From Deltaproteobacteria bacterium RIFCSPHIGHO2_02_FULL_40_28 (lineage in GTDB: Bacteria; UBA10199; 2-12-FULL-40-28): a stretch of 64,000 nt of DNA. Of this stretch, positions 29,962 through 51,489 are shown piece after piece. Each line of letters starts with the position of its first letter. Position 1 is the first letter of the stretch. The position numbers were made by a program, and so were the translations under genes. The notes beneath the pieces are model-generated. The model had not been told where the DNA came from and ran no database searches. It was given only the letters and a program-made list of their open reading frames with translations. Location of the stretch: the NCBI GenBank assembly GCA_001798135.1, contig MGRJ01000015.1, forward strand, positions 124,001-188,000, read 5' to 3'.

Positions 29962-31053
29962 ATGCAAACAAGTCGGCAAATTTTTGAGAATGTACAAAAA
30001 AAAATATCTCAAAAGGAACGCATTACTTCGGACGAAGCCCTGGCCCTTTTTGATTTTAACGATCTCATCTCTCTCGGAAAATTGGCAAATCAGGTGCGAG
30101 AAACACTGCATAGCAACAAAACCTACTACATTGTTAATCGCCATATCGATTATTCCAATATCTGCGCCATCAAATGTAAATTTTGTGCCTTCGCCAGAAA
30201 AAAAGGGGAAGAAGGAAGTTTTGAATTTACCATTGATGATATTGTGAGCAGGGTTTTGCAAGGGCTTAAGGTAGGCATCACCGAAATTCACATGGTAGGA
30301 GGGTTTCATCCCACTCATTCTTTTGATTTTTATCTGGAAACTTTAAGAGCTGTAAAAAAAGTAGCTCCCAAGCTTCATATTAAGGCTTTTACAGCAGCAG
30401 AGATTCGTTATTTTTCAAAAAAATTTAGAAAAACTGAAGAAAAAGTTTTAGAGGAATTAAAAAACGCAGGACTCGATTCTCTTCCTGGAGGAGGAGCTGA
30501 AATTTTTGACCCCGAAATTAGAAAAAAAATTTGCGGCCCCAAGGGGCCGGCCCACTATTGGCTAGATACTCATAAAAGAGCCCATGCCTTGGGCTTTAAA
30601 AGCACAGCCACTATGCTTTATGGCCATATTGAAACAGCTCAAAATCGAGTCAATCACATGGAAGCAATTCGAAACCTGCAAGATGAATCAGGTGGTTTTA
30701 TGTGTTTTATTCCCTTGGCCTTCAATCCCAAGGGCACTGAATTTGAAAGCAAGGGATATACTTCGGGCATTGATGATCTTAAAACCCTGGCCATTGCCCG
30801 CATTTTTTTCGATAACATCAAACACATTAAAGCTTATTGGATTATGTCGGGTGTAGAAATGGCTCAATTAGCCCAGCATTTTGGAGCCGACGATTTGCAT
30901 GGAACGGTGATGGAAGAAAATATTACGCATATGGCAGGGGGTAGGGCACCAGTTATGCTTCTTGAGGCTAACCTACATCGCTTAATCCGTGAAGCCGGGC
31001 GTATTCCAATTCAACGTGATTCACTTTATAACACTGTTCGAAGTTTTAATTAA
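29962..31053 (+). CDS. mqnE: Aminofutalosine synthase MqnE
   Basis: Radical SAM enzyme of the futalosine route to menaquinone; it joins the MqnA product to SAM-derived adenosyl to give aminofutalosine. The 363-residue protein has the cluster motif CAIKCKFC (Cys68, 72, 75), YYIVNRHIDYSNIC before it, EIHMVGGFHPTHSFDFY and LPGGGAEIFDPEIRKKICG. The paralogue MqnC is the main alternative; the GGFHP motif and N terminus favour MqnE. Other mqn genes are not in the window. Confidence 0.9.
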   Translation: MQTSRQIFENVQKKISQKERITSDEALALFDFNDLISLGKLANQVRETLHSNKTYYIVNRHIDYSNICAIKCKFCAFARKKGEEGSFEFTIDDIVSRVLQGLKVGITEIHMVGGFHPTHSFDFYLETLRAVKKVAPKLHIKAFTAAEIRYFSKKFRKTEEKVLEELKNAGLDSLPGGGAEIFDPEIRKKICGPKGPAHYWLDTHKRAHALGFKSTATMLYGHIETAQNRVNHMEAIRNLQDESGGFMCFIPLAFNPKGTEFESKGYTSGIDDLKTLAIARIFFDNIKHIKAYWIMSGVEMAQLAQHFGADDLHGTVMEENITHMAGGRAPVMLLEANLHRLIREAGRIPIQRDSLYNTVRSFN

Positions 31054-31057
31054 AGTT

Positions 31058-31141
31058 GCGGGTGACACTGGGGGGGTGTTTTAAGCGCGCAGCGATAACG
31101 GGAGCGAGCACTTAAAATACCCCCCCAGTGGCAGGACCCGC
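31058..31141. repeat. Long hairpin element between convergent genes (element A)
   Basis: Arms at 31066-31085 (CACTGGGGGGG then TGTTTTAAG) and 31111-31130 pair over 20 positions with one G-T wobble. The short outer pair GCGGGT/ACCCGC (31058-31063, 31136-31141) continues the stem. The 25-base GC-rich loop contains GCAGCGA and GGAGCGAGC. It lies between the mqnE stop and the convergent unknown gene. There is no U tract, so it is not a standard intrinsic terminator. Confidence 0.85.
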
Positions 31142-31142
31142 T

Positions 31143-31877
31143 CTATTTAATGGAAATTTCCGCCATTCCTAAAATAGCGTGACATTTTGAATGGGTTGTG
31201 AGCGTCAAGGTGAGTGACTTTTGCCTTTCTAATTCCTTTTTAAATAAATTCCAGGCATTGAAAAGTTTTTGCAAAGGAAGATAGGCAATACCATCCACAA
31301 GTTGCTCACAAGAAAAAGCTACAGAATAAACAGGAAAAGAAGCTTGGGCAGGTTTAAGATCCAAAATCATACGAGAAAAATTCCAAGTACGTTCACCTTC
31401 AATTGCAGGGCACACCTCTGGCTCATCACATTCTGGGGGACAAATCCAGGTTGCATAACTTAACGCATATACTCCTTCATGAACTTTTTTTTGAAAAGGA
31501 AAAACAATATCCTTCGAAAAGTCCAATAAAGTAGCCTTCCATAATTTTTTTTTAATTAAATTTAAAAAAAGTTGAAAAAAAACATGGGGAGCTGTGTGAT
31601 CAGGAATCAAATAACTTTCTTCCCAATTTTGAGAATCAAAAAAAGAATCGGTTAAAAAATCAACATAGCTTGAATGAATAAATGCTACATCAGGTAGGGG
31701 CACAGCGCGCTGTGCCCCTCCAGTTTTCACCACGCAATGCTCATCAGAATCTACACAAAAAAACTTCGGAACAAAGGGAAAACGGCCTTCAAAAGTAGCT
31801 TTTTGCATTCTTTCTAGGTAGTTCACGGCCAATTTATGCCCCCCCAGCACAAGAATTTTTCGAGAAAGTTTTGCCAT
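31143..31877 (-). CDS. Unknown 244-residue protein with a Cys cluster
   Basis: I do not recognise the family. The N terminus (RKILVLGGHKLAVNYLERM) looks like the start of a nucleotide-binding alpha/beta fold. DHTAPHV (93-99) has two His, and WICPPECDEPEVCPAIEGER contains Cys146, Cys150 and Cys156, a possible metal site; further Cys occur at 41, 48, 190 and 232. A perfect 24-bp palindrome (31696-31719) lies inside the frame and encodes residues around GGAQRAVPL (53-61). The gene stands alone, convergent with mqnE. Confidence 0.75.
   Translation of the reverse strand: MAKLSRKILVLGGHKLAVNYLERMQKATFEGRFPFVPKFFCVDSDEHCVVKTGGAQRAVPLPDVAFIHSSYVDFLTDSFFDSQNWEESYLIPDHTAPHVFFQLFLNLIKKKLWKATLLDFSKDIVFPFQKKVHEGVYALSYATWICPPECDEPEVCPAIEGERTWNFSRMILDLKPAQASFPVYSVAFSCEQLVDGIAYLPLQKLFNAWNLFKKELERQKSLTLTLTTHSKCHAILGMAEISIK
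31696..31719. repeat. Perfect 24-bp palindrome inside a reading frame
   Basis: AGGGGCACAGCG followed by its exact reverse complement. It is preceded by GT, giving the GTAGGGGC start seen in a second, less regular palindromic sequence at 51388-51410 between shc and the SDR gene. It keeps the surrounding 244-residue frame open. Its GC content is far above that of the flanking gene. Confidence 0.85.
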
Positions 31878-40239: not shown

Positions 40240-40560
40240 ATGTTTCGTCTTATTAAACTTATTTTTTGGGTCTTTACAATCATCATTTTAGCTTATTTTG
40301 TTGCTGATTTAAAAATTGCAGGAAAAAATATCAAACAAAGGGTGGATGAATTTTTAGCCAGCCCTACCCACCAGAAACAAATCAAGCAGGGCATAGGAAA
40401 CCTAATCCAAAAAGTAGATGGATTGCTGGAATCCAAAATAGAAAATAAAATCAAGACAACCAAACAAGAAAATACATCAATCCAGCCTTCTCCAACAGAA
40501 AATCATTTGGAACAAGACAGTACCCAAGCTCTTGAAAACATCATTAAAAAAAACCAGTAG
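40240..40560 (+). CDS. Small single-pass membrane protein, unknown
   Basis: 106 residues with one N-terminal membrane helix (about 4-24) followed by a charged helical, coiled-coil-like region (AGKNIKQRVDEFLAS to about 75) and a polar tail. No family is recognised. Its last 29 bases overlap the next gene's proposed start in another frame. Confidence rests on the clean architecture and the ATG at a sensible position after a divergent intergenic region. Confidence 0.6.
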   Translation: MFRLIKLIFWVFTIIILAYFVADLKIAGKNIKQRVDEFLASPTHQKQIKQGIGNLIQKVDGLLESKIENKIKTTKQENTSIQPSPTENHLEQDSTQALENIIKKNQ

Positions 40561-40882
40561 GGGCTGGGTTTCCCGGCCTTCTAAAAAATTTTTAATCCTT
40601 TGTTTTCTTTTTTTTATTCCTCATCTCACAAGGGCAGAAAATCGTCCTTCTCTTAAAAAATTAACCCAGTTTTTTGATTTAGATAAAAATGGAGTTTTAA
40701 ATACCTATGAAAATTCTCTTATAAGGACCCAGCTTCATTTTAACTGGCCTCTCGCTAATACAAAAACAAAAAAGAAGTTTGATTACAACAAAGATTATAT
40801 GTTGGAACCCTATGAAGAAGCACAATATGAAAAAGAAATTTCTAAACACAAAATTCAATTTAGGGGAATTAACAAAAGATAA
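40532..40882 (+). CDS. Small exported EF-hand protein
   Basis: 116 residues: a basic N terminus, hydrophobic core KFLILCFLFFIPHL and likely cleavage after TRA, then two EF-hand loops, DLDKNGVLNTYE and DYNKDYMLEPYE, which would bind calcium in the periplasm. The start is uncertain: TTG 40532 is the only practical initiation codon, lies inside the upstream gene and has no clear ribosome site, so translation may be coupled. The real product may be defined from the signal peptide onward. Confidence 0.6.
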   Translation: MKTSLKKTSRGWVSRPSKKFLILCFLFFIPHLTRAENRPSLKKLTQFFDLDKNGVLNTYENSLIRTQLHFNWPLANTKTKKKFDYNKDYMLEPYEEAQYEKEISKHKIQFRGINKR

Positions 40883-51309: not shown

Positions 51310-51489
51310 ATCTGATAAAAAAATAAATAATTGGGAAGGGAGGTTAGCTTATTAGAATAAAAATCGAAACCTCTTTTTACTCGAATCGTAGGGGCGCTGA
51401 GCCGCGCCTTCTTATAAAAGTTAACATAATATCCATTATACGACATAATAATTATTTGCTCCTCTGCTCGGAATGTTAGATACTCCATC
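51310..51489. other. 180-bp divergent intergenic region
   Basis: Separates shc (-) from the SDR gene (+) and must hold both promoters. It contains GTAGGGGCGC at 51388-51397 followed by TGAGCCGCGCCTT, an imperfect palindrome that begins like the 24-bp palindrome at 31696. An apparent minus-strand frame of 70 codons crosses it but looks like translated repeat. I cannot place promoters reliably. Confidence 0.5.

Follow-up and report, generated by a model that had tools for sequence, protein, structure and literature searches.

A GTAG palindrome lying in frame within ordinary bacterial genes is most likely a double-foot REP moved by RAYT transposases

A gene of 244 codons in the 64,000-bp stretch of DNA analysed here (the window) contains a perfect, GC-rich palindrome, and the locus raises the question of how such a sequence came to lie in a reading frame that it does not interrupt. 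According to the original prediction, a mobile palindromic element had entered the gene in frame. The palindrome is, in our assessment with a probability of about three in four, a non-autonomous mobile element, namely a double-foot GTAG REP that was most likely moved by a RAYT transposase.

The palindrome AGGGGCACAGCGCGCTGTGCCCCT was confirmed as 24 bp of perfect symmetry within the 244-residue frame, encoding GGAQRAVPL (Table 1). Because the GTAG and CTCC at its two ends are the two "feet", the natural unit is 28 bp rather than the 24 bp given before. The second foot reads CTCC in the window copy and CTAC in other copies. This was the only loop-free palindrome with arms of at least 9 in the window; its arm of 12 compared with a longest arm of 10 in 50 mononucleotide shuffles, and the pattern had no match in 100 dinucleotide shuffles. 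A chance palindrome was rejected on these values and on the 13 copies in the genome. The GC content was 75%, while the ORF has 37% and the window 38%, so that the predicted contrast with the surroundings also held. As single-stranded DNA, the 28-mer formed a 10-bp stem with a 4-nt loop (z = -4.7), and none of 200 shuffles was as good. A known RNA family was rejected, as the sole Rfam gathering match in the window was a tRNA.

Table 1. Position of the element, its parts, its host gene and two candidate relatives in the window.
Feature	Position	Strand	Basis or remark
28-bp double-foot REP GTAGGGGCACAGCGCGCTGTGCCCCTcC	31694-31721	.	13 genome copies; DNA hairpin
Foot GTAG	31694-31697		
Palindromic stem	31696-31719		
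Decayed second foot CTCC	31718-31721		
244-aa host gene, no Pfam or NCBIfam match	31143-31877	minus	ORF; orthologues
Possible decayed single GTAG REP GTAGGGGCGCTGAGCCGCGCC	51388-51410	+	outside ORF tiles; weak
Possible decayed single GTAG REP GTAGGGGCTGGGTTTCCCGGCCTTCT	40557-40582	+	GTAGGGGC then imperfect inverted repeat; weak

The host protein had no match in Pfam or NCBIfam, and Foldseek of its AF2 model returned nothing at E ≤ 0.001. In this model (six sequences, mean pLDDT 78.5), the element-encoded residues 53-61 fall in a predicted loop, with residues 53-63 as coil between a helix and a strand; the pLDDT of the block 51-60 was 60. Six orthologues were found among seven other genomes of the order, and the element residues were missing from all six, unrelated residues occupying the position. 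From the invariant A27 to I67 there are 40 residues here and 33, 31, 38, 30, and 33 in five homologues, which are distant (only 31-38% identical); the loop of the window protein is thus 2-10 residues longer. The sixth orthologue (L063) lacks most of the region in the alignment and was left out of the length comparison. The aligned homologues have invariant Cys and His residues in common. The 244-aa gene adjoins a radical SAM gene whose C-terminal region is of CofH/MqnC type by Pfam (window 29962-31877), and by eye a similar neighbour stands beside the orthologue in L061 and L066.

The genome (2.16 Mb, 31 contigs) was searched for the core GGGGCACRGCGCGCYGTGCCC at up to two mismatches, with the reversed sequence as control. 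The search gave 13 copies and the control none, so the palindrome is not unique. These copies and the absence of the residues from the orthologues support the predicted entry of a mobile palindrome into the gene in frame. Perfect GTAG...CTAC ends were present in nine copies. Twelve of the 13 lie wholly within frames of at least 244 codons, ten frames in all since one giant frame holds three, and the thirteenth (C23) lies partly across the edge of an ORF tile of 157 codons; the same 21-28 bp therefore recur in ten frames, and an eleventh has them at its edge. Four of the ten frames were named by Pfam: NadC, Mfd, TatD, and XerD. Two codon phases of the 28-mer have no stop and are identical on both strands, while the third contains a TAG stop. 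The GTA.GGG.GCR phase was used by 11 of the 12 intragenic copies (one-sided binomial p 0.003; 8 to 1 when the three copies in the giant frame are set aside). It reads GTA GGG GCR CRG CGC GCY GTG CCC CTA, that is VGA[RQ]RAVPL, with small changes; the remaining copy uses the RGTARRAPT phase. We rejected the idea that genes themselves are targeted. At 88% ORF-tile cover, the 12/13 copies in ORFs are not in excess of random placement (p = 1.0), and our claim is therefore limited to a lack of purging and a frame bias. Among seven relatives from the order, five had no site at up to two mismatches, one had three and one had one, all at two mismatches.

The sequence GTAGGGGC occurred 205 times in the genome and its reversed control 81 times, and a good part of these sites must therefore be chance. 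The window held 4 such sites against 0.68 expected, and 1 of 100 shuffles had as many. A sample of 23 stretches (154,932 bases) around the first 100 places listed provided 104 sites, 60 within ORF tiles, 8 partial, and 36 outside. The GTA phase was found for 30/32 sense sites inside tiles, with 15 of these 30 in one giant frame and palindromes counted on both strands. A stretch of contig C4 of this genome (L249, about 3.3-20 kb) holds a single open frame spanning 5,574 codons or more, cut off where the stretch ends; it has 24 GTAGGGGC sites (two palindromes counted on both strands), and all 15 sense sites share the VGA phase. A piece of this frame (L053) gave a HopA1-family match over the Pfam cut-off and HEAT stretches below it. 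The related palindrome predicted at 51388-51410 does lie outside the ORF tiles, but it shares only GTAGGGGC with the element and its imperfect stem was not clearly above chance (z -1.4, 23 of 200 shuffles as good); it is at best a decayed relative. The other candidate sits at the junction of the ORF tiles 40240-40557 and 40532-40879.

Three Y1_Tnp genes were found in the genome, two on contig C5 and one on C17. Both C5 RAYTs carry a 59-bp REPIN, GTAGGGGC...GCCCCTAC, in frame directly after MPNHIH. It resembles the 28-mer in the foot and stem base only, and its halves are dispersed in the fetched stretches of the genome. The C17 gene is of another type (SNHCH) without such a repeat, and the 28-bp core was in none of the assembled RAYTs of this genome. 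The C5 RAYTs read WQRNYYEHIIR, by eye with the spacing of W94, Q95, E100, H101, and R104 of E. coli TnpA-REP, the residues named for GTAG recognition in excerpts of PMC6006769; moreover, an Asn follows four residues after a Tyr (YINDN), as the same excerpts describe for TnpA-REP. Given their odd N-terminus, the two C5 RAYTs may be dead. L032 and L033, two entries for the genome's own RAYTs, have SPSPNPLPSREGG or a similar string in their N-terminal part; this is apparently another repeat family, at the place expected for the domain's first strand. Pieces of RAYT genes also occur at two contig ends, one on C5 and one on C29, with the middle missing. Beside the fragment at the contig end (L308, C5:1-420) are repeats of the GTCATCCCGGC...GCCGGGATCC type, possibly a third palindromic family.

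The exact 28-mer was present in at least 116 stretches of GTDB genomes, 80 of them among the matches listed. By record title, these listed matches include Poribacteria, Planctomycetota, Nitrospirae, Acidobacteria, Chloroflexi, Desulfuromonas, Betaproteobacteria, Omnitrophica, Latescibacterota, Uhrbacteria, Peribacteria, and Spirochaetaceae. The 80 loci listed contain 82 palindromes, 31 wholly inside ORF tiles, 17 partially, and 34 outside. Since only 31/82 are wholly inside at 90% tile cover, the 28-mer elsewhere acts more like an extragenic REP. The contrast with 12/13 here was significant for the loci listed (Fisher p 0.0004) and weaker when partial overlaps were taken as inside (48/82, p 0.027). 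Of the 31 inside palindromes of these loci, the GTA phase accounted for 22, the other open phase for 9 and the stop phase for none. We also searched 47 genomes, 46 of them picked for having the 28-mer, and found 1-61 copies each at up to two mismatches and none of the control. The RAYT of genome G042 has a different core, which was present in 34 copies in G042, 10 each in two genomes, 2 and 1 in two others and none in the remaining 42; the make-up of cores therefore differs between genomes.

A Y1_Tnp match at E ≤ 0.001 was obtained in 42/46 genomes chosen for the 28-mer, compared with 5/14 control genomes, and was not found in 4 of the 46. Parsing gave 22 RAYT ORFs of one clade, one from this genome; 20 of them have GTAGGGGC in the post-HUH loop, and the exact 28-mer is in frame in four and a near-exact one in four. 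The four parsed Y1_Tnp ORFs outside the clade had no REP in that loop. Uncounted in this parsing were 37/63 loci without a new HUH..FK frame by motif, including L033 and L226, which repeat genes of this genome. In a RAYT tree made without the loop, the cores clustered weakly (4 changes compared with 7.2 on average after shuffling; as few in 6 of 500 shuffles); this tree has one starred branch only, and its label 'A' includes L224, whose core differs from the 28-mer.

Movement by a RAYT builds on the repeat family with its GTAG feet and hairpin, on its in-frame placement in ten frames, on the in-frame REPIN in this genome's own RAYTs and on RAYTs elsewhere that contain this very 28-mer. Most likely, a RAYT, a Y1/HUH tyrosine transposase, would recognise the GTAG foot and the hairpin on single-stranded DNA, cut the hairpin and rejoin it elsewhere. 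The window copy would thereby have landed in the 244-aa gene in a phase that keeps the frame open, and the protein would tolerate it because its nine residues sit in a surface loop. Several observations count against this explanation. The assembled RAYTs of the genome lack the 28-bp core, the C17 gene being of another type, and the C5 RAYTs are possibly dead; 4/46 genomes have no Y1_Tnp match; the four parsed ORFs outside the clade have no REP at that place; and compared with five relatives each, TatD has no net insertion and XerD only +1 to +7.

Without a RAYT, the hairpin could be copied by template switching, single-strand annealing or gene conversion at replication forks, which goes over existing sequence and would often replace DNA instead of adding it. 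We regard this kind of spread as unlikely. TatD suits it: 61 residues here, 61 in five relatives, and 60 in one, a length change of 0-1 with residues replaced compared with six of seven relatives, the seventh (L282) having its own insert and being misaligned at the element. Against three solved homologues TatD is also gap-free there. The element thus overwrote sequence in TatD, or a compensating loss happened; TatD is not explained by plain insertion, so copies are not pure insertions in every case. The change in XerD is partial, with 61 residues here and 54-60 in the five closest orthologues. Two further orthologues have long own inserts (74 and 93 residues) and eight XerC-like paralogues, one belonging to this genome, have 64-65, so that ten XerC/D-type proteins are longer in the alignment and this XerD is not clearly longer than its wider family. 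The genomes without a Y1_Tnp match and the lack of this core in the genome's own assembled RAYTs would also suit copying at forks, but NadC speaks against it with a clean addition: a 10-residue gap lies opposite the element in PDB 3l0g and 3gnn, and the same gap total, spread over pieces, in 1x1o. NadC has 61 residues here and 51-59 in six relatives from the order (+2-10). The same holds for the GTAG foot, a RAYT mark in excerpts of PMC6006769 and PMC8266576, which stands at both ends in 9/13 copies, and for the RAYT genes elsewhere with the same 28-mer. The Mfd copy lies within a stretch unaligned to E. coli Mfd.

The NadC gene (L038, about 1310-1355) has a second, unrelated in-frame palindromic insert, CCCTCTCCCC...CCTCAAGGGGGAGGGG, which sits at a gap compared with the PDB homologues. 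In addition, TatD and XerD orthologues of the relatives G005 and G004 (L282, L285, L288) have long own inserts at or beside the REP place, as if the TatD and XerD loops were repeat-tolerant across the whole group.

A site selected for protein binding or DNA uptake, immobile and falling in genes by chance, is a far less probable reading of the palindrome. Perfect symmetry, an exact sequence in many phyla and tolerance in genes would be expected of such a site, but not a copy number from 1 to 61 over 47 genomes, its absence at up to two mismatches from 5/7 relatives of the order, or an in-frame position within transposase genes. It is hardly credible that the protein has had these residues of old and that the palindrome arose as an accident of coding. 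Variability of the region and the near-equal length of one homologue (G002, L064; 38 vs 40 residues) would fit, but the recurrence of the 21-28 bp in ten frames, with an eleventh touched at its edge, already contradicts it, and the residues of the orthologues are unrelated.

Returning to movement by a RAYT, we suggest, as a doubtful extension, that in this lineage the REP may now be gene-dwelling. It would keep to one preferred phase, sometimes overwrite, give its nonapeptide to unrelated proteins and cross phyla because it travels inside the coding sequence of the transposase itself. With unusual clarity, the element shows selfish DNA that has become protein sequence outside Rickettsia. It further points to an uncomplicated way for REPs to pass between phyla, the transfer of one small gene that holds its own seed copy.

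In excerpts of PMC6006769 and PMC8266576, GTAG is the recognition mark of RAYTs, and those of the latter describe its role in cutting. Double-foot REPs and in-frame REPs within RAYT genes were described in excerpts of Quentin et al. (2018, PMC6006769). REPs wholly inside ORFs and translated, often in DNA repair, recombination or replication genes, appear in excerpts of Di Nocera et al. (2013, PMC3733652), where most REPs are intergenic. Since both in-frame REPs in ordinary genes and double-foot REPs in RAYTs are already published, the palindrome clearly adds a further example to a phenomenon that is known though little studied. What may be new is its strong bias to a single frame within genes, together with its exact sharing across phyla. 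In the open literature without supplements, the 28-mer was not found: two strings from its start, its 24-base inner string and one REPIN string were unmatched, and a fifth string returned three unrelated papers only. No report of the 28-mer being shared across phyla was found in literature listings outside subscription papers and supplements. Excerpts of PMC12306157 contained nothing on intragenic copies, and a term search in PMC2817692 gave no match.

With 28 bp (in a range of 20-40 bp), a GTAG foot, a hairpin, and repetition in the genome, the element agrees with GTAG REPs, but these are mainly extragenic and 12/13 copies here are wholly in ORF tiles. Extragenic placement is a tendency and not a bar, as intragenic REPs are described in the family (PMC3733652, in excerpt). 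As in those, the copies are translated within ORFs, here of Mfd, XerD, and TatD (Pfam names); unlike them, 12/13 are in frames and 11 in one phase. The likeness to TnpA-REP subclass 2.4, as excerpts of PMC6006769 present it, is one of features only: a GTAG foot with its reverse complement at the other end (GT[AG]G / C[TC]AC, perfect in 9/13 copies and decayed at the second foot of the window copy), and such RAYT genes in palindrome-bearing genomes. The subclass would also have a REP in frame between HUH and Tyr of its cognate RAYT; at that place, other genomes have this core (4 exact, 4 near-exact) and the genome's own RAYTs a different REPIN. The element differs from that subclass in lying mostly in ordinary host genes and in the exact sharing of the 28-mer across many phyla. 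The predicted comparison with Rickettsia holds for palindromic repeats in frame within unrelated genes, ten frames here. However, Rickettsia RPEs are reported to be CGTC-tagged, and CGTC REPs apparently have no dedicated transposase (excerpts of PMC3733652), whereas the GTAG tag and the RAYT marks make the REP/RAYT system the better place for this element.
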